A program made the position numbers and the translations under genes. From Hyphomonadaceae bacterium TMED5 (GTDB taxonomy: Bacteria > Pseudomonadota > Alphaproteobacteria > Caulobacterales > Hyphomonadaceae), in the NCBI GenBank assembly GCA_002173095.1, contig NHBK01000016.1, positions 1 through 64,000 of the forward strand: 64,000 bases of DNA. The letters are read 5' to 3'. The notes under the pieces are model-generated. The model worked only from the letters and a program-made list of their open reading frames with translations. It was not told the DNA's origin and made no database searches. Each line of letters opens with the position of its first letter. Position 1 is the stretch's first letter. This document shows, piece after piece, positions 13,264 to 32,049 of this stretch.

Positions 13264-13779
13264 TTATCGGTTCCAGAACACATGGACTTCTTGATATCCC
13301 AGATCGATGGCCAGAACGTCATTGATCTCTAAGTCTCGTCCCATACGTTCCCAATCAATGTAATATTGCAGGTGGTTAGGGACTTCACTTGTCTCTTCAG
13401 TGATTTCCTGTGCGAAGTCGGCGAGGCTTTCATATTGCCCTGCGTAATCGTCCTCTAAAGCGCGTTTGGCTGTTTCGAAGTCGCCAAAGTGGTTCGCAAC
13501 TTCTGCGCCTAATCGGCCATACTCTTCGATGAATTCCGCCTTTTCCACCACGCTTTGAATACCTTCGTATTCAGAAATGCTTAACCCTTCGAAGCCTTCA
13601 TAATCATGGATTGCCCATTCTTCCGCACCTAGCATCGGTGAGGTTTTCAAAACTTCGTTGATCTGACCCCAGATGGCATCTTCGTCGAGTGTGGCATCGA
13701 TCCAAGCTCCGTGTAGGTAGCCGTTATTATAGGCTGCGAGACAGGCTACATATATTCTAATTTCTCCGTTCTTTGTCAT
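13264..13779 (-). CDS. ardA: ArdA-like antirestriction protein
   Basis: A 171-residue acidic protein matching ArdA, a DNA mimic that inhibits type I restriction enzymes during conjugative entry. Seen features are IRIYVACLAAYNNGYLHGAW near the N-terminus, many Asp/Glu residues, and a C-terminal NDVLAIDLGYQEVHVFW. The start at 13779 follows GGAGG; a longer frame upstream has no ribosome site. It is separated from the type I system on the same element by the DUF2779/HerA group. This order suggests help for entry into hosts with restriction. Confidence 0.85.
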   Translation of the reverse strand: MTKNGEIRIYVACLAAYNNGYLHGAWIDATLDEDAIWGQINEVLKTSPMLGAEEWAIHDYEGFEGLSISEYEGIQSVVEKAEFIEEYGRLGAEVANHFGDFETAKRALEDDYAGQYESLADFAQEITEETSEVPNHLQYYIDWERMGRDLEINDVLAIDLGYQEVHVFWNR

Positions 13780-13800
13780 TTGAAGACCTCCGTCAGGTAA

Positions 13801-14045
13801 AGGTTGCTCATGCAACCTTGGCCTTCGCCGAGAACGGGGTGTGCAAACGGAGATGAGAATCGACGGCGGGCGCAAGGGCTTGCCCTGAGCCTCGGGAGAC
13901 CGTCTATTTTAAGCGAAGTGCGCTGAGGGGCTGGCCCCTAAGCCTTACGCAAGGGATCGAAGCCGGATGGCCGAGACAACTGGCAGGCAGGCTCGGTTCA
14001 CGAGAGCCCGGCCTGAAAGGATGGGGCAATGTATCGTTGCTAAAA
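13801..14045. other. Hairpin-rich leader region of ardA
   Basis: About 245 bp without a gene. AGGTTGC-TCAT-GCAACCT (13801–13818) stands just upstream of the ardA ribosome site. Further out are AGGGGC-TG-GCCCCT and GGCTC/GAGCC stems. Single-stranded promoters in hairpins are known upstream of ardA-type early genes on conjugative plasmids, and this stretch could act so, though that is speculative. Confidence 0.4.
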
Positions 14046-14048
14046 AGA

Positions 14049-15467
14049 CTAAAGTGCTCTCAGAAAAAGATAAATTTCGACCATCGCAAAGGTATCAAGT
14101 TTACAATAGCTAAGGAGAGAACTTGCCCTTTGGTCAGCCTCTGGTCCCTTCGCGTTAATCATCTGTTCCCACGCATCCATTGCGGATGCGCCGTCTTGTA
14201 CCTCCAAACCCTTATAGCTAAGTTCGGGGCATAGGATTGGCAGAACCTTTTTAATCGAGGTTGAGCCATCAAATCGCGCGTCGACATAAGCGGACTTGAA
14301 AACATCCTCAAGGTCTACGGTACGCTCATTCATATCTTGCAAGAAGTCGCTAAACTCAGGAAACAACAAAGCCATCTCCCTATTCCGTGTTTTCTCGAAG
14401 GACGCGTGCCAGGAAACGATACTGCCGGTGGGGCCGATATCTCCCTTCAGCACTTCCAAAAGCCTAATCGGCAACCGTGCTTCTCGCTCTAGAAATTCTC
14501 GGTGCTCCAAGTGACCGTTTTCGTGCAGGACGTGAAGAGAGTATTGCACTGGAAAATGCTTATGCGGACTTGCTCTGTCCACTATCGGAACTGCGGAAGC
14601 GAAAGTCTCATAGTCAAAAAAATATAACGGAAACTGCCAGCCGTCTAAGAACTCCCGAACAGCCCGACGATCAATTATAGGGGCACCTGCACGAGCTGCT
14701 TGCAGAACAGCCAGTTGGTTCGAACTCAGAGGGTAGTCTTTTGGGATATCTAAAAGGTCAAAAATTCCGTTGGTGACCAGCTCGTTTCGCTTCGTCTGAC
14801 TAAGGCGCGGCAGACTATAGATCGAGGGCTTAGGAATATCAGGATTGAACACCTCAAATGTGTCGCAATGGTGAGCACGAGAACTGCGCAGGCACGAACA
14901 CTGTGAACGATCAATTGCACCCTCAGAAAGGAACTCTAGCGCACGATCAATCTGAGACGACAGGTCTGCCTCGATCGCTCTAACATCCGCCGAAACGTCG
15001 GCGAAAGTAAGCAACCCAGACGGCTCTATTTCGCCGCAACGAACGTATTCACCGTTGAGGTGAACGATGTAGACTGCATCGATATGCCGCCCAGAACGCT
15101 CAGCGCATATCTTCTGAAATGCCGCGTCTTTGATGTGGTTGTGAGCAGGATCGGTTTTAACGCTAGTAGATGATTTGATCTCATAAAGAACGCAGCGTTC
15201 ATCGTCCAAATGCTCCAGAGCGTCTGCCCGAGCAAACAAACCAGATTCGGTCTCAAATACCTCCTGAAAACTGATGCGGCGATCAGGCGACGCATCAAAA
15301 TATGCCCGCACGTAGCGCTCGACCTCATAGCCCTCGCGCGTGATTTTCTGCAAGAAAGTGGAAAATTCACCAGCCGGATAACTCTCAGGCTCATTCTTCA
15401 GCAACCAAAGTGACTTGGGACAATTCAGATATTGAATGAAGTCAGTTTTTGTAAGCTGCATTCCCAC
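14049..15467 (-). CDS. DUF2779 protein: Cas4-like nuclease plus DEDD-like exonuclease domain
   Basis: A 472-residue two-domain protein. The N-terminal half resembles Cas4/RecB PD-(D/E)XK nucleases: Asp82, then Glu96-Ile-Lys98 in YEIKSS. Cys16 in CPKSLW and Cys190, Cys192 and Cys201 would hold an iron-sulfur cluster. The C-terminal half looks like a DEDD-fold exonuclease, with FFDYETFA (Asp285, Glu287), a WHASFEK motif, and a final SYCKLDTFAMVEIY. It is the last gene of the long defence run, 2 bp after the KTSC gene. The family's role is unknown; processing of DNA or RNA is inferred. Confidence 0.75.
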   Translation of the reverse strand: MGMQLTKTDFIQYLNCPKSLWLLKNEPESYPAGEFSTFLQKITREGYEVERYVRAYFDASPDRRISFQEVFETESGLFARADALEHLDDERCVLYEIKSSTSVKTDPAHNHIKDAAFQKICAERSGRHIDAVYIVHLNGEYVRCGEIEPSGLLTFADVSADVRAIEADLSSQIDRALEFLSEGAIDRSQCSCLRSSRAHHCDTFEVFNPDIPKPSIYSLPRLSQTKRNELVTNGIFDLLDIPKDYPLSSNQLAVLQAARAGAPIIDRRAVREFLDGWQFPLYFFDYETFASAVPIVDRASPHKHFPVQYSLHVLHENGHLEHREFLEREARLPIRLLEVLKGDIGPTGSIVSWHASFEKTRNREMALLFPEFSDFLQDMNERTVDLEDVFKSAYVDARFDGSTSIKKVLPILCPELSYKGLEVQDGASAMDAWEQMINAKGPEADQRASSLLSYCKLDTFAMVEIYLFLRAL

Positions 15468-15469
15468 TA

Positions 15470-15682
15470 CTATCCTACTCTTGAGTAGCCGAAACCGTTC
15501 TTAATATAAGCGTTCAGAAAACGCCCTTTCGACCCGGCCTGCATTAGCTGGTCGTACAAATGCTCAGGGACACCATAATACTGATAGATCATTCCACTGA
15601 AGAATTCGACTTCTAAAGTCTGAGTATTCACATCATATCCTATAGATGCGATATTTGACGAAGCTACGGAATATCTTTCCAC
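15470..15682 (-). CDS. KTSC domain protein
   Basis: A 70-residue protein consisting of little more than a KTSC domain. It shows SSNIASIGYD, LEVEFFSGMIYQYYGVPEHL, and a conserved SKGRFLNAYI tail. The domain is named after the lysyl-tRNA synthetase C-terminus and is often predicted to bind nucleic acid; its function is unproven. It directly abuts HerA and is 2 bp before the DUF2779 gene, so a role in the same system is likely. Confidence 0.8.
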   Translation of the reverse strand: MERYSVASSNIASIGYDVNTQTLEVEFFSGMIYQYYGVPEHLYDQLMQAGSKGRFLNAYIKNGFGYSRVG

Positions 15683-17524
15683 CTACGCCTCCCCTTCCTG
15701 TGATTGATCGTCGACTGGCTGTCGTTCAATACTGATATCATTGATTGTGACCCGAGGTCTTTGTGCGCGCCATGATGCAACCACACGATCATACCCTTCT
15801 TCTCTTCGCGGAATCGACCACATTTGGTTCACATTTGGATCGCCGCTCTTAGGACGGTGCTCTTTTCGAGGTAAAGTGATGCGACATCTCATGGGCAACT
15901 TAGCAGCTTCACCCATTATGATCGCTTCCCCGGTCCTGAGAACTGGCAGCACTTCTAACAAGCTTACTAATCCGTCAGGCAGTGTGCCTTGAACTCTCGC
16001 TCGGTCTTGAGGGTTAGTCAGCCGTAAGGCGAAATAGGTGCCGCACTGCGATAGGATAGTTTCATCTACTTCTGAAGGCCGTTGGCTAATGACCATAGCG
16101 CCTACGCCGTATTTGCGTCCTTCTTTCGCGATTTTTTGCACAACTTGAGAAGCCAACCCCTGCGCGCTGCTAGACAAATAGCGATGCGCTTCCTCCATGA
16201 CGATCAACAAAGGTCGCGAAATCCCACCTTCCGATTTTTCCCTACTCCAAAACATCGACTCATAAACTACTTTGAGAATAGAGCCGACCATCCTTTCTAG
16301 GACCAGACTGGGCACACCGGATAGATCAAGTATCGTGATTGGATTGGGACCGCCGAGCCACCCCAACAATAGTTCGTCAAGGTCTCTTGCTACAGTTCCA
16401 TTGAGGGAAGGCTCCCAATCACCAGGATGCAAAAGAAAGTTGTAGCGGCGATCCAGTAGTAGCGATCTCAGTTGATTTAGTTGACGCCTAATCCCAAGAG
16501 CCTGTTGATTGAGGAAAGGCCCCTGGGCGCCCATAGCGTGAGGCTTATACCGAGGAGCGATCAACTCTTCGGCATTGCCGGGATCTTGTTCCGTTGACTG
16601 GTCTCTTTGCGGCCCTTCAAATGTTGCAGTCTCAAAAGCAATTAGGTCATACCAGAGCTGCTTAAGGCTAAAAGGCAGCGGGGTATCGACCGTGATAGAG
16701 CTCGCTTGGACCCCTGGAAAGTTTTGAGCTGCGTGAGCAGCTGTTTTCAATTGAAAAATCTTGTCTGTGAATGCTGTTTCCCGCTGGCCATCTACCCCTC
16801 CAGTTAGAAAACCAAGCAAATCCGACGCATCTAACGCCCAATATGGCATTAGTAATTCTTGTTCTCCTGCTTGTGGGTCTACCGAAAAGACATTTGCAAC
16901 ATCAGACAGTGCTGAAGAATATTCACCATGAATATCAAGCATCAGAATTCTTGCGCTGGGATGGTCTTCGACATCACCATCCGAAGATACGATTGATCGC
17001 AGAAGACTTGCAATTGTAGTCGATTTTCCAGAACCGGTTGAGCCGAGTATAGCGCTGTGACGGGTCACCAACTCGTTCAATGACAGTTTTGCAGGAATGC
17101 TTTCCGCGCTCGAGAGCGCACCAATTACAATCTGACCACTCTCACGGGCACCGTATATCTTGGCCAAACCGGTTTCAGTTGTGATATGGACGCCATCGCC
17201 CACATTCGGATACTGGCTAATACCTCTTTCAAAAGCACCGCTCGTGGCTTCTCCCACAAGCTGAACTTCCATCCAGCGACCCGTTTGTAAGTCAGGTGCT
17301 CCATCCGATTTTGGTGCCGCATCCGCTCCAACGCCTGAAACCACTCCGTATAAATCCTGATAACCTTGTGGAATTCGCACGAAACTCCCGACCTGACCGA
17401 TTCGATAAGCGCGTCCTTCAATCATTGAGAGACCCGAAGCAACAGATTGTGCTAGATGCACGCTTACAGATGAGCCTGAAACAGAAGCGACGCTGCCTAG
17501 AAATGTGGGATCGCGGCTAAGCAT
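15683..17524 (-). CDS. HerA-like ATPase of a SIR2–HerA defence pair
   Basis: A 613-residue HerA/FtsK-type ATPase. An N-terminal HAS-barrel region (about 1–130) is followed by Walker A GSTGSGKST (161–169), an ILMLDIHGEY segment, Walker B LLIVMEEAHRY, and a sensor SQRPSEVD. HerA forms hexameric rings. In the SIR2–HerA (Nezha) anti-phage system it assembles with SIR2 to trigger NAD+ loss and DNA cleavage in infected cells. Its start overlaps the SIR2 gene by 8 bp and its end abuts the KTSC gene. Full length and intact by motif. Confidence 0.85.
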   Translation of the reverse strand: MLSRDPTFLGSVASVSGSSVSVHLAQSVASGLSMIEGRAYRIGQVGSFVRIPQGYQDLYGVVSGVGADAAPKSDGAPDLQTGRWMEVQLVGEATSGAFERGISQYPNVGDGVHITTETGLAKIYGARESGQIVIGALSSAESIPAKLSLNELVTRHSAILGSTGSGKSTTIASLLRSIVSSDGDVEDHPSARILMLDIHGEYSSALSDVANVFSVDPQAGEQELLMPYWALDASDLLGFLTGGVDGQRETAFTDKIFQLKTAAHAAQNFPGVQASSITVDTPLPFSLKQLWYDLIAFETATFEGPQRDQSTEQDPGNAEELIAPRYKPHAMGAQGPFLNQQALGIRRQLNQLRSLLLDRRYNFLLHPGDWEPSLNGTVARDLDELLLGWLGGPNPITILDLSGVPSLVLERMVGSILKVVYESMFWSREKSEGGISRPLLIVMEEAHRYLSSSAQGLASQVVQKIAKEGRKYGVGAMVISQRPSEVDETILSQCGTYFALRLTNPQDRARVQGTLPDGLVSLLEVLPVLRTGEAIIMGEAAKLPMRCRITLPRKEHRPKSGDPNVNQMWSIPRREEGYDRVVASWRAQRPRVTINDISIERQPVDDQSQEGEA

Positions 17525-18758
17525 TCACGTCATCACTTTCTTCAAGCTCATCGATTAACTTGGCATCGGCAGAAGTCCCGTCTGCTTGACGAAAAATGTC
17601 TTCCGCCTGGGCTAGAGCAAAGAACCTTGCCAGACTCGCAAAATCACCGAGAACAAAGTTTCCTGTGCCGCTCTCATCTTTTTCCCAAAACGTTCGACGG
17701 ATGCTTTTCCATTCTTCTGTCGGCGGTTCTCCCGGGCTCCATTTTCCTTTCACGCCAAATATCGCGGCGCCATCTCTTGCGTAGACACTCAAATTGGGTC
17801 TTCGCAAAGCAAGCTTCACCGCCAGCTGTTCGTCCTCAAGAGCCTTGAACTGAAAAGCCAAAATGGCAGTGTGTTTATTGGCCGCAAGCGCCTCGTCGAA
17901 AACCGCGCATATGTGAGCGTCAAAAAATGAAAAACCAGAACAGATCAGAATTGTATCCGGTGTAGTCAAGAAATCGCGAAGTCGCTCAAAAAGCGCCGAA
18001 TAGGGTTGCCTTGCAATCTGATCATATTTGAGGTGATCGGGATAAATCAGTTCTGTTGCTTCACGACTGCCGGTCCGTACTATCGCATCAGGCTTTACTT
18101 CCCAGCCAAGGGACCCATGCATCTTCCATATTCTAGACCAACGAGCTGGAAGGCTATCGTCTTGAATACTGGTCGGATCAAAGAAGGGTTTGTGAGAACC
18201 GGTAAATCCATCAAAATACGGCAAACGTGCGCGCTCGAACGCCTCTTCTAGAAGCAGATCATAGTTAGGCGTGAATATCTCGACGGGGAATTCTCGGTGC
18301 GTGCCCCCGATCCAAGAGACGAGTTCAGTGAAAGCATTGGGTTCTGAAGGAAGCGGGCGGGCTACAATTGTACCAATTTTTGAGCATATTCGCTGCGCCA
18401 ATTGTTCGTAGGCTTCCCCATTGAGTCCGTGAACTTCAGCTGCGCCTATTGCTTGGGACAACCTTCGAATACGCGTTAATATTGCCTCAATGTTCGCGTT
18501 TTCACCAATTTCCGGCAAGAGCAGATTCAAAACATCACGATCCGCTTGCTCTAAATCCTGAACCACTAGTGTAGTGAGCCGAGCAACATCTGGAATTAGC
18601 GGGTTTCCTGAGCTGTTGAGCCGATTCTCGTCATCTACCGTTATCGAGACGGGAGCTCCTGCTCCCAATAACAAACCGACGCGTTTTTTTCCTTGAGAAA
18701 GAATTTGACGCAAATCGACCATGTACCGATCTGGATTGTGGATGGTGGTGTCTATCAT
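17517..18758 (-). CDS. SIR2-domain NADase of a SIR2–HerA defence pair
   Basis: A 413-residue protein with a SIR2-like Rossmann domain. It has LLLGAGAP (nucleotide loop, residues 30–36), FTPNYDLLLEEAFE with the catalytic-type Asn165, KMHGSLGW with His214, and a distal CSGFSFFD motif. SIR2 proteins in anti-phage systems hydrolyse NAD+ and abort infection. It overlaps hsdR by 4 bp upstream and HerA by 8 bp downstream, so it is translationally coupled to both. The protein has no membrane segment. The C-terminal 130 residues are not assigned. Confidence 0.85.
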   Translation of the reverse strand: MIDTTIHNPDRYMVDLRQILSQGKKRVGLLLGAGAPVSITVDDENRLNSSGNPLIPDVARLTTLVVQDLEQADRDVLNLLLPEIGENANIEAILTRIRRLSQAIGAAEVHGLNGEAYEQLAQRICSKIGTIVARPLPSEPNAFTELVSWIGGTHREFPVEIFTPNYDLLLEEAFERARLPYFDGFTGSHKPFFDPTSIQDDSLPARWSRIWKMHGSLGWEVKPDAIVRTGSREATELIYPDHLKYDQIARQPYSALFERLRDFLTTPDTILICSGFSFFDAHICAVFDEALAANKHTAILAFQFKALEDEQLAVKLALRRPNLSVYARDGAAIFGVKGKWSPGEPPTEEWKSIRRTFWEKDESGTGNFVLGDFASLARFFALAQAEDIFRQADGTSADAKLIDELEESDDVNA

Positions 18759-21700
18759 AAGGAAGCACCTCCTATTTGGGTTGGTGGTCTCGTCGGCCAG
18801 CGCCGCTCAAAGAACAGGAACAAATTGTCCGTCTTCGCTTGCAGATCATCTTCATCATATGCGTCCACGGGTAAGCCCGTGCGGTCGTCGTAGAGGTAGT
18901 CGTAGATGGTCTGCCTAAAGCGGTCGCGGGTGGCCGTTTTCGTGAAGATGTCCTGCACATCGCGCATCTGCGTTTCGAGTTCACGCAGCAATGAAACGGC
19001 GACGCTTTTGATCTTCTTGATATCGGCTTTGGAAAGGTCGGGCTTGAGCAGAAGGTCGAACACGGCGAGCTGTTGCTCGTTCTCCAGACCTTCTTTCACG
19101 TAGCGATGTTCTTCTTCGCTCATCTCAGCGGTGAGGCGCATCAGAGCCTCGAACGTCGCCTCAATCGTATTCTTATCTTTTTCCTTGTTATACTCGCGCA
19201 CGATCTCGTCGAAGCGTTCCTGAAAATCTGTCCGCAGAGGGTTTTCCGCGAGCATCTTCTGGAGGCGTTTCTCAATGACAGACTTTACATCCTGAACGTC
19301 TGACCGCTTCGTTTCGCTTTTCGCGAATTCCTTGCGGAGCAGATCAAAATTGATCTTCGAGATGTCGAATATCTTGTCGTCGGAATCGGCGTCTTCTTTG
19401 ACATTGATGGCGTCGCTCACAATGGCGTTCAGCCGTTGAATGATAGCGGAAGTGTCCGCCTGATCCCGGTCATCCTGAAGCGTTTTGTAGAGGAAATTGA
19501 TCGCCTCGCTATCTGAACGATAGGCTTTCACACCTTCGAACGTCAGACAGGCTTTGAACTTTCTGAAGACAGACCGCGCTGAAATTTCGAAACGCTTTCG
19601 CGTCTCATCATCGACATTCACCGCTTCTTTCGCGTCGAGAATGGCCTTGTTGCGCGCAAAGCCCGTTTCGTTGATCAAACGGCTGAGATCAAAGTCACGT
19701 TTAGTGAGTTGTTCCCGTACAAGCATGATGGCCTCGGCGAGCTCACCAAGCAGCTCTTCTTCGGGGTGAAGCGGATCAGAGACCGGTTCCCCGTCTTCGC
19801 CCATCTCACCGTCGCCTTTGTGACCGGCAAAAGTCGAAAGCGCTTTGCGAAGGTTCTTCAGGATGCCGCAGTAATCCACGATGAGGCCGTTATTCTTGCC
19901 TTCTTTCACGCGGTTCGCACGGGCAATTGCCTGCATCAGCGTGTGGGCCTGCAATGGCTTATCGAGATAGAGCGTGGATAGCGAAGGCACGTCAAAGCCG
20001 GTTAGCCACATGGCGCAGACGATCACCACACGGAACGGATGCTCTTCGCGTTTGAACGCGCTGTCCACATCAAGACGCTTGCCATCTTCAAGCAAGAAAC
20101 CATCTTTCATCAGCTTGCGATGCGGCAGGATATCGAGGTTCCATTTGCGGAACTTATCGACTTCGCCTTGCTCGTCGCTAACGACAACGGCGATCTCTGT
20201 TTCCTTCATCCAGGCGATTTGTCGTTCCCGCAAAGCCTGATCCTGATCATCGCGCGCGTTCGTGAGATCAGCCTCAAGAAACTTGATCCGTTTGTCCCAT
20301 GCAGCCTTGATATAGTCATGCATCCGAACGGCGGTGATCTTGTCGATGCTGACAAACATCGCCTTGCCAGTTTCCCAGTTCGTGGAATAATGTTCGGCGA
20401 AGTCCTCAGCGATATGGCGCAAGCGCTTCTCCGCCGTCACCACATGGTATTCGCGCTTCAGCTCATTTTCGAGCTTCGCCGCTACATCGGCGTCTGACGT
20501 TTCAGCTTCAGCAATCGCTTCTGCCAGTTTTTCATTCAGACCTTCAGCGGTCAGGCCAAGCTTGTCGCCGCGCGCGTCGTAGTAGAGCGGCAGAGTGGCG
20601 TTGTCTTCGATGGCGCGCTGAAAGTCATAGGTGGAGATATAACCGCCGAACACCTTCTTGGTGATCTCATCACTGCTGAAAAGCGGCGTCCCCGTGAAAC
20701 CGATATAGCTCGCATTCGGCAGCGCATCGCGCATATTCATCGCCAATGTGCCGTATTGCGTGCGGTGCGCTTCATCTGTCATCACGATGATGTCGTCACG
20801 CGTGGAGTATTCCTCGCCTTCGCTGATCTCTTTATTGAACTTCTGAACGAGCGAGAACACGAACGCCTTTTGCTGGCTCAAAAGCGTCTTCAGCTCTTCG
20901 CCGCTATCGGCGCGGCAAGGGTCTTTCTCGTTATTGGCAAGACCAACGCCCGCGAAGGTCTTGTAGATTTGATTGTCGAGGTCCGTCCGATCCGTCAGCA
21001 CAAGGAAGGTGAAGTTCCCGCCGAGCTTTCGGCGAACCTTCTGCGCAAATAAAGCCATGGAGTAAGACTTACCGGAGCCCTGCGTGTGCCAGAACACACC
21101 AAGCTTCCCGTCCCGCTTCTTTCGATCAACAACAGATTGGAGCGCGCGATTAACGCCCAGATACTGATGGTTCCGCGCGACGATCTTAGCAAGCTTGCCA
21201 GAGCTATCGTCAAACAGAATGAAATTCTCTAACAGGTCGAGAAAGTTGGCGCGGTCACAAACGCCCTTGATCAACGTTTCCATCTGCACGACGCCAGCAT
21301 CGCCTTCGGCCAGACGCTTCCAGTCGCTGAAGTGCTCATACTTTGCGGAAATCGATCCAATCTTGGCTTCAACACCATTCGCCAGAACCACAAAGGCGTT
21401 GAAGTGGAAGAGCTGCGGGATGGTGTCGAGATAATCTTTGAAATTGTCGTCATAGGCGCGGCGCAGCGATTTATCGGGGCGCTTCAGCTCGACAAACATC
21501 AGCGGCAGACCGTTCACATAACCAATGATGTCGGGGCGGCGACGATGACCATTCGGCCCGCTGATCCACATTTCCCGTACGCACAGGAAATGATTGTTGC
21601 TCGGGTCATCATAGTCGAAGACCTTCAGGCGGCTTTTTTTGATCTCCCCGTCCTTATGATAGCTCGCAAGCACGCCATCTCGGATCAGCTCATATTTCTC

Positions 21701-21979
21701 ATGATTGGTCTGAACAGCGGATTGGAAACCAAGCGTGTCGGTAATCTGACGCAAAGCGTATGTGTAGGCTTCTTCGGGCAAGCCCGGGTTCAGCCGAACG
21801 AGGGCTTCACCTAGATATCGGGTGAGAACAACTTCACGATCTGACAGGCGGCCAAGCATGCCTTCGGAGCCGAAGGTTTCGGCGTTGAAGGCGAGAACGC
21901 TTTCATGCCACTTCAGATCATTCACAAGGTAATCTGAGAGTGTTTCCTGCGCCAATCGATCTTCGGTGAAGTCGTTCAT
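18755..21979 (-). CDS. hsdR: Type I restriction endonuclease subunit R
   Basis: A 1074-residue HsdR, the motor and nuclease of a type I restriction enzyme. The N-terminal PD-(D/E)XK site is RRRPDIIGY with Asp150 and FVELKRP with Glu164 and Lys166. The helicase core follows: Walker A TQGSGKS (about 299–305), DEAHRTQYG, and motif VI region IARANRVKEG. The C-terminal 300 residues are helical. It overlaps hsdS by 4 bp upstream and SIR2 by 4 bp downstream. All key residues are present, so it is probably active. Confidence 0.93.
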   Translation of the reverse strand: MNDFTEDRLAQETLSDYLVNDLKWHESVLAFNAETFGSEGMLGRLSDREVVLTRYLGEALVRLNPGLPEEAYTYALRQITDTLGFQSAVQTNHEKYELIRDGVLASYHKDGEIKKSRLKVFDYDDPSNNHFLCVREMWISGPNGHRRRPDIIGYVNGLPLMFVELKRPDKSLRRAYDDNFKDYLDTIPQLFHFNAFVVLANGVEAKIGSISAKYEHFSDWKRLAEGDAGVVQMETLIKGVCDRANFLDLLENFILFDDSSGKLAKIVARNHQYLGVNRALQSVVDRKKRDGKLGVFWHTQGSGKSYSMALFAQKVRRKLGGNFTFLVLTDRTDLDNQIYKTFAGVGLANNEKDPCRADSGEELKTLLSQQKAFVFSLVQKFNKEISEGEEYSTRDDIIVMTDEAHRTQYGTLAMNMRDALPNASYIGFTGTPLFSSDEITKKVFGGYISTYDFQRAIEDNATLPLYYDARGDKLGLTAEGLNEKLAEAIAEAETSDADVAAKLENELKREYHVVTAEKRLRHIAEDFAEHYSTNWETGKAMFVSIDKITAVRMHDYIKAAWDKRIKFLEADLTNARDDQDQALRERQIAWMKETEIAVVVSDEQGEVDKFRKWNLDILPHRKLMKDGFLLEDGKRLDVDSAFKREEHPFRVVIVCAMWLTGFDVPSLSTLYLDKPLQAHTLMQAIARANRVKEGKNNGLIVDYCGILKNLRKALSTFAGHKGDGEMGEDGEPVSDPLHPEEELLGELAEAIMLVREQLTKRDFDLSRLINETGFARNKAILDAKEAVNVDDETRKRFEISARSVFRKFKACLTFEGVKAYRSDSEAINFLYKTLQDDRDQADTSAIIQRLNAIVSDAINVKEDADSDDKIFDISKINFDLLRKEFAKSETKRSDVQDVKSVIEKRLQKMLAENPLRTDFQERFDEIVREYNKEKDKNTIEATFEALMRLTAEMSEEEHRYVKEGLENEQQLAVFDLLLKPDLSKADIKKIKSVAVSLLRELETQMRDVQDIFTKTATRDRFRQTIYDYLYDDRTGLPVDAYDEDDLQAKTDNLFLFFERRWPTRPPTQIGGASL

Positions 21980-23187
21980 GCGGCCACCTCCAATCGACCG
22001 TCCATGAGGCGGGGAAGCAATAGGTCTCGGGCTTTTGCCAGTTCGATGTTTTGTCGAATTAAGGTTTCAATCATTGCAAATTGAGGTTCGACAATCGACT
22101 GAAACCCTCCTGTCAATTCATCCACAGGAAGAAGAACTGGGATGCTTTGAAACTTGCTTTTATTGACGTTTGCCATCGTCGCGCCACCGCCAAGCGCTTC
22201 CAGTCTCGGCTTGATGGACTTTAAGAAAGAATAGCAAAAGAAGCGCCAATCGTCTTTTCTAGGAACTACAGAATTGATCTGTTGATTGGTTTGCGCGGGG
22301 CTGCCATTCATCGAGACAACACCTACTGAACCAATGCAAGATACTAAGATCGAGCCCTTTGGCAGAGTTTTGTTTTGTTGAGACTTTGCACCTTCGTTGG
22401 AGAGATACTCTTCTGTTTGAACGACATAAGCGTTGCCGTGCATATCGGGTGTTTTGATGAAGGGCACATCGTCACCGTAAAATTCCGGCTTTTTCTTCGA
22501 AGGCGTCTTTCCAGTAATTGCTTCGCCAAGATCTGCAATTGTACCTTCTTCCCATCCCTCGGGAATTCCATCGACGATTTTGACGTGCTCGTGGCCGGGG
22601 AAGCGGAAATGGACAAACCATTCGCGATACAGAAGCCGTGCTGCTTCCTCCAACAAGGCAATCCGCCGTCGATTGTTTTCGATCAAGCCTTCGTATGCAT
22701 CTGCTGTTTGTCCGATTTTTTTCTGGATTTTCGTGTCAGATATTATGGGGACTTCGAAGCCTCTGAACGCCGCCAAACTCACATATGGCTGAGCCGAGCC
22801 AAGCCTTAAATTCAATAGTCTTCCCTGGAAGAGCGGGCTTTTTACGAAATGATAGAAGTATGAAGGATCAACAATCTCAGGGTCAGGCCTCAAAAGCGCG
22901 ACGTTCTTGATACTAAATTCAGTTTCCGTCTCAACTCGGGCGCAGTCACCGATTGAGCCAATATTTGCGATAAGAATGTCGTCCTTTTCGGGCTTCACTC
23001 GCTTGATACATTTTTGATGATCGTCATCGGTAATGTAATCACACCCGACAAAATCGATGCGACCGGTATTGATATGCTTGCCCTTTATGAAAGGGACACC
23101 GCTCTCCTGTAGTTTCGGAGAATCGTGCGTTCCATCTGTTACCAGCGCACAAATTTCAGAAAGCTTCATGTCGGAAAACAAACTCAT
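21976..23187 (-). CDS. hsdS: Type I restriction specificity subunit S
   Basis: A 403-residue HsdS, which reads the bipartite target. Two target-recognition domains (about residues 1–150 and 205–350) each precede a conserved helix: KIQKKIGQTADAYEGLIENN in the middle and AMIETLIRQNIELAKARDLL at the end, the latter followed by LLPRLMDGRLEV. Overlaps of 4 bp with hsdM and hsdR keep M, S and R translationally coupled. The recognition sequence cannot be predicted by eye. Confidence 0.92.
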   Translation of the reverse strand: MSLFSDMKLSEICALVTDGTHDSPKLQESGVPFIKGKHINTGRIDFVGCDYITDDDHQKCIKRVKPEKDDILIANIGSIGDCARVETETEFSIKNVALLRPDPEIVDPSYFYHFVKSPLFQGRLLNLRLGSAQPYVSLAAFRGFEVPIISDTKIQKKIGQTADAYEGLIENNRRRIALLEEAARLLYREWFVHFRFPGHEHVKIVDGIPEGWEEGTIADLGEAITGKTPSKKKPEFYGDDVPFIKTPDMHGNAYVVQTEEYLSNEGAKSQQNKTLPKGSILVSCIGSVGVVSMNGSPAQTNQQINSVVPRKDDWRFFCYSFLKSIKPRLEALGGGATMANVNKSKFQSIPVLLPVDELTGGFQSIVEPQFAMIETLIRQNIELAKARDLLLPRLMDGRLEVAA

Positions 23188-25190
23188 GCAATCAGACCTT
23201 CAAAACCTGATTTGATTCTAAGAGCTAATTCTCGCGCCTCGTCATTTAATCCTTCGATTTCAATGTGAATGTCTCGAAGCGCTTCTTCAAAATCGAAGTC
23301 CTCGTCTTCTTCCTCTGGCGCGACGCCGACATAGCGGCCTGGCGTCAGGCTCCAGTCATTGGCCTCAAGCTCCCCACGGCCAACGAGTTTGACCAGTCCT
23401 TCCACATCGCAAAGTTCTGCATTCGGGAAACGGATTTGCAGCCATTCGGCTTGCGTGTGGAAATAGCGCGCCTCTTTTAGGTGTTCGGTGACGGCCTTAC
23501 GTGCCTCATCCAGCTCTATAAGACGTTTTTTGCCTTCAGCAGGCTTTGTGCCGTTGGTCACATCTGCCTCGTGAACGCGGGTTGCCAGCTTGTAGAGGTG
23601 ATCCAGTTCCTTGATCAGAGACTTGGCTTGATTTGCTATTGGCGCGAGCGCATCAGCAGACGCTTTCAGCCCATCATTATCTCGCGCAGCGGCGTTCCAA
23701 CCATGTTCAAAAGCTGATTTGGCCGCAGATTGCAACGCGTCTATATCGCCCGAGACGGTAGCGGCGAGCTTGGTGAGTTCATCATCTTTATGGGCGTCAA
23801 CGACAGCTTTGAGTGCGTCATTTAACTCACTGAAATCACACGCCTGCATATCCGAGAAGGCGGTGTCGAAATAGCTCTCGACCAATTCCAAATACCGGTC
23901 AGTCTGGCCACGATAAAGCCAGACGATGGCAGTAATGTTCTGCTGTTGCTCTGGTGTGAAGTCGTAAATCTTGCGGGTCACTTTGCGAAAGATATTCCGC
24001 GCATCGATCATCAGGACTTTGTCCTTCAGGTGATCCGACTTGCCCTTGTCGAAGAACCAAAGCTCGCACGGCACTGTGCGCGTGTAGAAAAAGTTGCCGC
24101 GAATGGCGACCATGACATCGACATCACCTGTCTTGATCATGGCTTCGCGGACTTTGGCTTCGCCGCCCCCAGACGATGACGCCTGAGACGACATCACGAT
24201 GCCTGCGCGACCTGTGTCTGACAGGTATGAATGGAAGAAGGACATCCAGACATAGTTACCGTTGGAAACCTTGCCCGCCTTGTTCACGCCAGGCAGGCCG
24301 AACGTGAGGCGTGGGTCGTTTTTGATTTTCTCAGCGTCGATCTCATCCACGTTGAAAGGTGGATTGGCCATGACGAAGTCAAAGGGACCGTGCTTTTCAT
24401 GCGGGTCTTCGTAGTATGAAATGGCTTTGCCGATTTTGCCCTCCAGCCCATGAACCGCGAGGTTCATTTTGGCGAGACGGATCGTCGTCGGGTTTTTCTC
24501 CATTCCGTAGAAGGTGACGCGGTCGCTTGGGTTGGCTTTCATATATTCAATGAAATGTGCCGACTGAACGAACATACCGCCAGACCCGCATGCCGGATCA
24601 ATGATCTTCCCATGGTCGGGCTCGATGACGTTCACAATGGTCTGGACGATTGACGTCGGCGTGAAAAACTCGCCGCCATCATGCGCTTTCTGATCCGCGA
24701 ATTGGGTCAGAAAGTATTCGTAGATTTTGCCGAATACGTCGCCATCAGCTTTTTGAAGGGCTGGATCGTTAAATGTCCGCAAGAGCTGACCGAGATCATC
24801 ATCGCCCAGCTCCTGATATTCCGACTTGGGAAGCGCACCATCTAGCGATTGATAGTCCGCCTCTATGCTTTCCATCGCGGCGATAATTGCGCCTGCACGG
24901 TCGCCGCCGTCTGGGATCGACACAAGATGATCGAATTGGGCTTCCGGCTTCAGGAAGATAGAACCGCGCTGTGAAAAGTCTTCTTTTGTCAGGTCTCGTG
25001 TTTTGCCGCCACGCGAAGGTAGCGTTGCCACGATCTCGTCTTTGACACGCAAAAAGCGGCTATAGGCATGACGTAGGAAGATCAGCCCCATGACAGGCAG
25101 GAAATACTCGTTGCTGGCAAAGTTTGAGTTCGCGCGCAGATGGTCGGCCACTGACCATAAACGCTTTTCGATTTCCCCGACGTGTTCCAT
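23184..25190 (-). CDS. hsdM: Type I restriction methyltransferase subunit M
   Basis: A 668-residue N6-adenine methyltransferase. The N-terminal helical domain contains GDVFGKIYEYFLTQFA. Motif I is IDPACGSGG (197–205) and the catalytic motif IV is ANPPF (275–279). The C-terminal part is longer than in classical EcoKI M (about 530 residues) and includes a coiled-coil segment. It is the first gene of the seven-gene run; start at 25190. It methylates host sites and forms the M2S core of the R2M2S enzyme. Confidence 0.93.
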   Translation of the reverse strand: MEHVGEIEKRLWSVADHLRANSNFASNEYFLPVMGLIFLRHAYSRFLRVKDEIVATLPSRGGKTRDLTKEDFSQRGSIFLKPEAQFDHLVSIPDGGDRAGAIIAAMESIEADYQSLDGALPKSEYQELGDDDLGQLLRTFNDPALQKADGDVFGKIYEYFLTQFADQKAHDGGEFFTPTSIVQTIVNVIEPDHGKIIDPACGSGGMFVQSAHFIEYMKANPSDRVTFYGMEKNPTTIRLAKMNLAVHGLEGKIGKAISYYEDPHEKHGPFDFVMANPPFNVDEIDAEKIKNDPRLTFGLPGVNKAGKVSNGNYVWMSFFHSYLSDTGRAGIVMSSQASSSGGGEAKVREAMIKTGDVDVMVAIRGNFFYTRTVPCELWFFDKGKSDHLKDKVLMIDARNIFRKVTRKIYDFTPEQQQNITAIVWLYRGQTDRYLELVESYFDTAFSDMQACDFSELNDALKAVVDAHKDDELTKLAATVSGDIDALQSAAKSAFEHGWNAAARDNDGLKASADALAPIANQAKSLIKELDHLYKLATRVHEADVTNGTKPAEGKKRLIELDEARKAVTEHLKEARYFHTQAEWLQIRFPNAELCDVEGLVKLVGRGELEANDWSLTPGRYVGVAPEEEDEDFDFEEALRDIHIEIEGLNDEARELALRIKSGFEGLIA

Positions 25191-30073: not shown

Positions 30074-30403
30074 ATGCATGAGCATGAAGACCGCATATCT
30101 ATGCACAAACAACATGATCCGAATACGGACGATTGTACTAATCAGAAGCTATCAGTTGGGATCGATACATCAAAATACGAAGCTCTGTTAGCCGACGCGG
30201 AAATTTCGGATGAAGACAAGCGCGAGCTAATTCAAGCTTTATGGTCTATCGTTTCCAGCTTTGTGAAGCTTGGCTTTGGTGTGCATCCCGTCCAACTCGC
30301 AATGCGTAAAAGGGATTGTGGACAAGACTCAAACACCTTCGCCGCAGGGGCTCAGATTCCGCTAAAATCAGAGAGCGAGCGAAAGGAAGAGATGTCATGC
30401 TGA
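30074..30403 (+). CDS. Conserved small protein preceding serine recombinase
   Basis: A 109-residue protein with a helical core ([20 protein letters not shown] then [13 protein letters not shown]). Similar short ORFs often precede large serine recombinases in alphaproteobacterial islands. AAAGGAGG stands 5 bp before the ATG. Its end overlaps the recombinase start by 7 bp, implying coupling. A directionality or regulatory role is plausible but not shown. Confidence 0.65.
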
Positions 30404-32049
30404 AAACGTCAAACACACAAAAAGCGGTTGCTTATGTTCGCGTCTCTTCGCTCGCACAAGTCCGAAAAGGGCAAGGCGCTGAAAGCCAAGCCGCGCGCTG
30501 CGCTGAATTCGCCCGAATGAAGGGCTACGAGATAGTCCGCGTATTTGAAGACAAAGCGGTCTCCGGATCGCTAGTGGAACGTCCCGGCATGAAAACCATG
30601 CTTGCATACCTTCGAAAGCACCGACGCGAACAAATCCGAGTGATCATCGATGATATCAGTCGCTTAGCCAGAGACCTGACAGCCCATCTCAAACTCAGAA
30701 CGTCCATCTCAGAAGCGGGCGGCGTCCTTGAATCGCCTTCCATAGAATTCGGCGAAGATAGCGACTCGCAATTGATTGAGCACCTTTTGGCGTCTGTTTC
30801 TGCACACGCTCGCAACAAGAATGCAGAGCAGACCCGCAATCGGATGGAAGCTCGTATTAGGAGCGGCTTCTATCCGTTTGCGGCTCCTTGGGGCTTCAGG
30901 CACCAACGCATTGAGGGCATGGGCAAAACTCTTGTCCGCGATGAACCTCTGGCCAGCATTATCCAAGAAGCCTTTGAAGGGTTAGCGTCTGGGCGTTTCC
31001 AATCAAAAACGGAAATCATGCGTTTCTTCGAAACCTTCCCTGAGTTCCCTCGCGGGAATAATGGTCGGGTCCATTTGCAACGCGTGCACGATCTCCTGAA
31101 CCGCGTTTTGTACGGCGGCATGGTAGAACGCCCAGAATGGGGCGTATCCCTGCGTCCCGGAAAGCATGAAGGGCTGGTGAGTTTTGAGACATTCCAGAAA
31201 GCTCACGAACGTCTCAATGGTCGCGCCTATGCTGCGACCCGCGCTGACCTCAATCAGGACTTCCCGTTGCGCGGCGCGGTCGTCTGCGCATGTTGCTCAA
31301 AAAGCATGACCGCTAGTTGGTCTACATCCAAGACAGGTAAGAAGCATGCGTATTACATGTGCTTCAACAAAGCCTGCGATGAATACCGCAAATCCATCAA
31401 ACGCGATGATCTTGAGGGCGCTTTTGAGAAGATGCTTCAAAAACTAACGCCTGGAAAGCAACTCATCGACCTTGTAACAGTCATGTTTAACGACGCATGG
31501 AACCAACAAGCGGGACACGCCAAAGCCGCGCTTAGATCAGTTGAGGATTCGATTAAGAAGATCGATGCGGATATTGCCTCGCTTCTGGATCGTATTGTGA
31601 CGGCTACAAATGAGAGTGTGATCAACGCTTACGAGCGCCGTATTGAGAGCTTGGAAAAGGAAAAGCTTTTGCTATCCGAAAAGCTGTCTCAACAGCCCCG
31701 GAAGTATCGCCCTTTCGAGGAGATGTTCGAACTCACGATGCGCTTCCTCTCAAGCCCTTATAATCTTTGGAAAAAAGGTGATTATATCGCGCGCCAAACA
31801 GTGCTCAGATTGGTGCTTTCATCGCCACTGGCATATGACCGAAAATCGGGTTTTCGAACCCCCGATATTTCTAATATTTTCAGAGGCTTAAAGAGTAATA
31901 TGATGTCTGAAAAACAAATGGCGCACCCGACAGGATTCGAACCTGTGGCCTTCGCCTTCGGAGGGCGACGCTCTATCCAGCTGAGCTACGGGTGCATACC
32001 GTTCGCAAGGTGCTTACGTCATGCTTACGCGAGATTTTCGTCGGCCTAA
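30397..32049 (+). CDS. Large serine recombinase (site-specific integrase)
   Basis: A 550-residue large serine recombinase. The N-terminal catalytic domain begins [12 protein letters not shown], with Ser17 as nucleophile, and has later Arg residues in [14 protein letters not shown] recombinase domain follows (about 155–260), then a zinc ribbon (CACCSKSM ... YMCFNKAC) and a coiled coil (about 370–440). ATG 30397 is chosen over upstream frames because of AAGGAAGAG and coupling. The last 40-odd residues are encoded by the complement of a tRNA-Arg gene and its flank, so the natural C-terminus is set by the attachment junction. It integrates and excises the element. Confidence 0.9.
31919..31995 (-). 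tRNA. tRNA-Arg (anticodon CCG)
   Basis: A 77-nt cloverleaf on the minus strand. The acceptor arm is GCACCCG/CGGGTGC, the D stem GCTC/GAGC, the anticodon stem TCGCC/GGCGA with loop CTCCGAA, and the T arm ACAGG-TTCGAAT-CCTGT, with discriminator G and encoded CCA. All stems pair perfectly, so it should be functional. It lies inside the recombinase reading frame, opposite strand, and is the likely attachment site of the element. Confidence 0.95.

Follow-up and report, generated by a model that had tools for sequence, protein, structure and literature searches.

The stretch from 15470 to 18758 encodes, with a probability that I put at about 0.6, a three-gene SIR2-HerA-KTSC abortive-infection system that has a DUF2779 nuclease as an optional neighbour and is joined to a type I restriction operon. 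The window, that is, the whole stretch of DNA analysed, comprises 64,000 nucleotides of contig NHBK01000016.1 from Hyphomonadaceae bacterium TMED5. SIR2-HerA complexes contain a SIR2 dodecamer and a HerA hexamer and cause NAD+ loss. The conclusion that one SIR2-HerA clade has KTSC as its constant third core gene is strongly supported by the surveys described below.

The system lies in a run of seven genes, all on the minus strand and all abutting or overlapping. It begins with the genes for the type I methyltransferase subunit (hsdM, 23184..25190; PF02384 and PF12161), the specificity subunit (hsdS, 21976..23187; PF01420) and the restriction subunit (hsdR, 18755..21979; TIGR00348, 506 bits). 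Then follow SIR2 (17517..18758; 413 aa), an NADase by family (PF13289; PADLOC PDLC04094, 526 bits), a HerA-type ATPase (15683..17524; 613 aa; PF01935; PADLOC PDLC04105, 527 bits), KTSC (15470..15682; 70 aa, GTG start; PF13619, E 1.8e-26) and DUF2779 (14049..15467; 472 aa; PF11074, E 3e-35), which combines a Cas4-like with a putative DEDDy nuclease domain. The hsdM/hsdS, hsdS/hsdR and hsdR/SIR2 pairs overlap by 4 nt each, and SIR2 and HerA by 8 nt. HerA and KTSC are separated by 0 nt, and KTSC and DUF2779 by 2 nt, or by 8 nt if DUF2779 starts at the ATG at 15461, as it may. The type I genes directly upstream of SIR2 were absent from the preliminary description of this region, which had reported the DUF2779 gene and an abutting 70-residue KTSC gene; both of these reading frames are confirmed by PF11074 and PF13619.

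SIR2 and HerA are adjacent and each is a strong PADLOC match. The NADase motif of SIR2 is intact, N165-Y166-D167 and H214 being invariant in the alignment, and so are the Walker A (residue 161) and Walker B (residue 440) motifs of HerA. The closest solved chains are 8wiv_A for HerA (E 5e-171) and 8w9l_A for SIR2 (E 3e-68). The assignment of the small protein is equally clear: it scores 92 bits against PF13619 (gathering cut-off 25), and its model (pLDDT 95.6) superposes on 7x8c and 4rgi, which have the KTSC fold, with TM 0.92-0.95. No model of PADLOC-DB matched it. In 8wiv and six further PDB entries, the C-terminal end of the HerA chain (residues 629-696) is a KTSC domain, which matches the KTSC protein of the window with E 8e-18; the model of the latter gives TM 0.73-0.90 against chains of 8wld, 8wof, 8wiv and 8wj3. 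Two of these entries, released on 2024-09-11, are entitled 'SIR2/HerA antiphage complex' (8wld) and 'SIR2/HerA complex' (8wof). Since the domain is fused to HerA in 8wiv and 8wld, KTSC is no unknown extra of SIR2-HerA, and the earlier statement that neither DUF2779 nor KTSC is known from such systems fails for the KTSC domain.

How constant is this association? Scanning genome_contigs with SIR2 yielded 55 loci from several phyla, as judged by record titles. The order SIR2, HerA, KTSC was found in 51 of them, a count that includes one locus (L028) taken as KTSC-positive although its HerA is split over three ORFs. The four loci without KTSC either have broken SIR2/HerA ORFs (L018) or are cut by contig ends (L024, L025, L055). 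KTSC was likewise present in 14 of the 15 plasmid loci read, the exception (L188) having a truncated HerA. The window's class was sampled with 385 genomes, of which 15 had a SIR2 match, with HerA adjacent in every one; KTSC adjoins all three in-clade pairs (defined here as 375 bits or more) and none of the 12 others. Seventeen of the 385 genomes have any KTSC, and none of these is one of the 12 genomes with an out-of-clade pair. In the same way, among 64 HerA loci of viral contigs, KTSC accompanies 11/11 in-clade ones (a set that includes near-copies), once as a fusion, and is adjacent to 0/53 others, several of which are cut by contig ends. L276, one of these out-of-clade loci, has a KTSC gene on the opposite strand, at a distance of about 3.5 kb.

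KTSC was on the strand of HerA in 79/79 cassettes, with the start of the domain at -11 to 47 nt from the HerA stop, and in one IMG/VR locus (L192) HerA and KTSC form a single 682-aa frame. Across the 79 cassettes, KTSC and HerA distances correlate with a Mantel r of 0.78 (0/2000 permutations as high). In this clade, therefore, KTSC follows an intact HerA wherever the locus is complete, or is fused to the HerA C-terminus, and it co-diverges with HerA. The domain itself is not specific to these systems: of the 21 places with KTSC in the class, 18 showed no SIR2-HerA over the sequence that was read. A search for HerA plus KTSC with another effector found none, either among these 21 places, of which 18 lack HerA over that sequence, some on short contigs, or among the 53 out-of-clade HerA loci of viral contigs, where KTSC is never adjacent.

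Comparison with known systems places the window closest to 8wld, 8wof and 8wiv. By the E values given above the two enzymes are the same, and the HerA chain of these complexes ends in KTSC; in the window, by contrast, KTSC is a separate gene, and DUF2779 and type I genes adjoin. The type represented by 8j4u and 8su9, which I take to be linked to the SIR2-HerA papers of Mol Cell 2023, and by the NCBIfam families SIR2_antiphage and HerA_antiphage, resembles the window in its two enzymes and gene order. It differs, however, in that the SIR2 of the window scores 58 bits against SIR2_antiphage (NF042942), far below the curated cut-off of 500, and in that the out-of-clade pairs of the class lack KTSC in 12/12 cases. 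In a passage of Iyer et al. 2022 (PMC9503650), systems made of HerA, KTSC and an endoDNase are stated as an unpublished observation. There, HerA is coupled with a KTSC gene as in the window, and KTSC is called DNA-binding; the endoDNase, however, stands in lieu of the sirtuin, while the window has SIR2, HerA and KTSC together. This passage was the only place where a tie between KTSC and HerA was found in the sections of the literature searched, a search whose scope did not extend to descriptions of the solved complexes. SIR2-HerA is listed as a two-component system in the relevant part of PMC12198126, where a table has 'Unclear' for Sir2-HerA, apparently with respect to the mode of activation. 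KTSC is a concrete candidate for this activation step.

The last gene of the run encodes a two-domain protein (121.7 bits against PF11074, gathering cut-off 23.3). Its N-terminal domain is a Cas4-like PD-(D/E)XK domain, which Cas4 models match with E 6e-5. The Cas4-like residues pointed out earlier, Asp82, Glu96 and Lys98, are present and invariant in both DUF2779 alignments (16 and 15 rows, window included). The four candidate iron-sulfur cysteines of the preliminary description also exist, as C16, C190, C192 and C201, but their conservation is uneven: in the 16-row alignment C16 and C201 do not vary at all, in the 15-row alignment neither of them is an invariant or almost invariant column, and C190 and C192 are shared by the near subfamily alone. 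A Foldseek search with the whole model (pLDDT 91.7) gave domain-level matches only, to Dna2, to Cas4 and to lambda-type nucleases, with E between 4e-5 (for Cas4 7mi4) and roughly 1e-3. The identification of DUF2779 as CRISPR Cas4 proper was rejected, TIGR00372 giving 21 bits for a curated cut-off of 65; only the domain is Cas4-like.

As for the second, DEDD-like exonuclease domain proposed at the outset, the C-terminus of the model matches exonuclease domains of family-B polymerases (Z 14.0-15.5 over 162-172 residues, rmsd 2.5-3.5 A). D285, E287, Y454 and D458 are invariant in both alignments, and D385 is fully conserved in one of them and almost fully in the second. With the DxE, D and YxxxD motifs present, this domain is, as judged from the model, of the DEDDy 3'-5' exonuclease type with an RNase H-like fold. 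The same two-domain build is found in TM0106/COG2251 (RNase_H_2 plus PD-(D/E)XK) and in the DUF2779 family F.17 of PMC3985635. The passages of that paper devoted to these families place DUF2779 and COG2251 among presumed 3'-5' exonucleases, note in both a DUF83 domain resembling PD-(D/E)XK nucleases, and make no mention of SIR2-HerA.

Surroundings were read for 52 DUF2779 loci outside the window: 24 in genomes of the class and of relatives, 8 from a choice of 8 out of 30 plasmid records and 20 in viral contigs, one of the latter being a weak match, some flanks being short and a DUF2779 fragment (G035) being left out. The cassette was found beside only one of them (L078). Conversely, DUF2779 is present in a single one of the 55 loci found with SIR2 (L028), and the nearest cassette, L001, which is 79% identical in SIR2, has neither DUF2779 nor another Cas4/DEDDy nuclease. 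DUF2779 was therefore rejected as a fixed SIR2-HerA component. The preliminary description had proposed both genes as extra components and had named, as one finding that would speak against this, DUF2779 and KTSC occurring mostly alone; that is the situation of DUF2779, while KTSC stands as a component through its presence in 51/55 loci and its fusions.

A looser version of the nuclease idea fares better. Nucleases combining RNase_H_2 with a Cas4/RecB-like domain lie beside eight cassettes (L003, L004, L005, L020, L033, L073, L101 and L184); a Pfam check of five of these (L003, L005, L020, L033, L101) gave a clear RNase_H_2 in 5/5 and a nuclease domain above the Pfam cut-off in L003, L020 and L101. 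For quantification, 87 cassettes were reduced to 82 at 95% SIR2 identity, and to 80 on exclusion of the window and of L078, which had been found via DUF2779. The 52 controls consisted of 12 SIR2-HerA loci without KTSC and of 40 HsdR loci, the latter chosen from a longer list and coming from relatives of the window. A Cas4/DEDDy nuclease or DUF2779 was found within 2 kb of 9/80 cassettes and 0/52 controls (Fisher p 0.009), a p-value that, like the others given here, treats the loci as independent, L003, L004 and L184 being counted separately and probably sharing one event, and that depends on three nuclease models, two of them trained in whole or in part on cassette loci. Two more cassettes have such a nuclease between 2 and 6 kb away, and between 6 and 9 kb there is no further one (Fisher p 0.017 at 9 kb), so that 9 of the 11 nucleases found within 9 kb sit in the nearest 2 kb (position p 4e-4). 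Of the HsdR controls, none has one within 2 kb and one (L178) has it at 4 kb; the KTSC-less SIR2-HerA loci have none. The cassettes with a nuclease within 2 kb were distributed by source as 6/49 from genome_contigs, 2/14 from plasmids, 1/8 from the taxon sample and 0/9 from viral contigs. Over the available sequence up to 9 kb, 69/80 cassettes lack a Cas4/DEDDy nuclease.

Pfam annotation of the immediate neighbours, which is independent of my own models, points the same way. The neighbour scans, from which L078 was left out, covered 77/78 upstream and 78/79 downstream neighbours, and RNase_H_2 was the commonest family of the nearest downstream neighbour (6/78). By the same annotation it occurs within 10 kb of 1/40 HsdR loci (G055) and of 0/12 KTSC-less SIR2-HerA loci. 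On a quickly built SIR2 tree, in which some branches are long, 13/82 rows carry a nuclease within 6 kb. This distribution takes 11 changes, which may be gains or losses, at least 9 of them forced by starred branches. Since shuffled labels need 12.2 changes on average, the nuclease label is hardly clustered on the tree. What survives is a reading of DUF2779 as an optional nuclease arm: several nucleases that share its architecture without being orthologous occur beside the cassette, and DUF2779 is one of them. The nuclease arm suggested earlier holds for this class of enzymes and not for DUF2779 as a fixed part. At one cassette locus (L020:7007-14843), 3 nt separate the end of hsdR from SIR2, and KTSC is followed by a convergent gene for a Cas4/RNase H-like nuclease, a layout that resembles that of the window and is built from distant parts.

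The following pathway would be compatible with these data. KTSC would be a bound subunit of the HerA hexamer, placed like the C-terminal KTSC domain of the solved SIR2/HerA complexes and hence, by analogy with them, on the C-terminal side of HerA. There it could gate or tune assembly and NADase activity upon contact of HerA with phage DNA or with a product of the phage. DUF2779 would act as a separate nuclease, probably co-expressed, degrading phage DNA or its ends while SIR2 drains NAD+. Joined to the type I operon, the system might provide a layered defence, with restriction first and NAD+ depletion second. If KTSC is an obligate subunit of this clade, two-gene reconstitutions of members with split genes would miss a part, so that activity tests with two genes could mislead.

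KTSC might instead be an antitoxin- or chaperone-like brake, without a sensor role, that holds SIR2-HerA off until the phage titrates or destroys it. Such a brake would fit a small protein whose gene comes last, next to that of a toxic NADase, and the constancy of the linkage is what one expects of an antidote. That KTSC is fused to the C-terminus of HerA, both in the solved complex and in L192, is on the other hand easier to reconcile with a structural subunit than with a releasable antidote, and I consider the brake unlikely. The choice is less clear-cut for DUF2779, which could be a pure bystander, working alone or not at all, in a mobile element where defence genes accumulate. That 51 of the 52 DUF2779 loci outside the window lack the cassette, and that even L001 lacks DUF2779, speaks for this explanation; the excess of nucleases of the same build beside cassettes, concentrated in the nearest 2 kb, speaks against it, as does the fact that DUF2779 meets the cassette in three different layouts in its three cases (window, L028 and L078). 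Its role as a bystander is accordingly a serious contender, if somewhat short of an even chance.

At the opposite extreme, the seven genes could encode one supercomplex in which the type I enzyme recognises unmodified DNA and passes it to HerA-KTSC and SIR2, DUF2779 trimming the ends. The tight packing of the seven genes speaks for this model, and the recurrence in L020 of hsdR immediately before SIR2, together with a Cas4/DEDDy-like nuclease, lends it some colour. Among the 77 nearest upstream neighbours, however, HSDR_N occurs in only 2 and N6_Mtase in 3. Moreover, the HsdR of L020 is distant from that of the window (48-53 bits), and the two joins of hsdR to SIR2 therefore look independent. 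A single machine of seven proteins seems very improbable, and I retain the three-gene system with an optional nuclease neighbour.

Phages also encode free KTSC proteins: with a threshold of E 1e-3 they turned up in 60 of the 50,697 phage records searched, a number that includes duplicate records. No record of the same collection contains a relative of SIR2 that spans more than 80% of the query. It is therefore a testable idea that such proteins are decoys or triggers; they may equally serve in unrelated roles. The one nearest to the KTSC of the window (52% identical) belongs to Caulobacter phage Seuss, in whose genome the gene comes a short way behind rIIA and rIIB and is surrounded by small hypothetical genes. 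One can speculate, with little confidence, that there are two mechanistic types of SIR2-HerA, in one of which KTSC is an infection-sensing gate, that phage KTSC proteins are its decoys or triggers, and that Cas4/DEDDy nucleases are a swappable fourth arm coupling NAD+ depletion to DNA destruction. The phage proteins can be tested as inhibitors or triggers of SIR2-HerA.

The seven-gene run is embedded in a region of about 9-32 kb whose GC content (49-53%) differs from that of the left (55-64%) and right (51-58%) flanks. This region carries HipA, ArdA, TraG-like, serine-recombinase and relaxase-like genes, the last called by reading, without a family match. Given these genes, the defence run probably rides on a mobilizable element. 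No exact repeats of at least 15 nt join 7-15 kb with 30-32.4 kb, and the ends of the element were not found by this search; one end may lie where the large serine recombinase ORF (30316-32049) overlaps tRNA-Arg (31919-31995) on the opposite strand. The ArdA antirestriction gene (13264-13875) comes directly after the restriction/SIR2-HerA operon, on the same strand.

Other genes recur around the cassette. DUF2130, the commonest Pfam family of the nearest upstream neighbour (12/77), stands directly upstream of SIR2 in L026, L030, L032, L033, L041, L045 and L052, having been checked by name in Pfam for L030 and L052. The cassettes bearing it lie in a clade about 36% identical to the SIR2 of the window, and DUF2130 is possibly a further accessory component. 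Two CDS annotated as ADP-ribosylglycohydrolase follow the SIR2-HerA-KTSC cassette of the archaeon Natrinema zhouii (L076, 7972-9064), and L074 has an ADP-ribosylglycohydrolase gene about 3.4 kb upstream.
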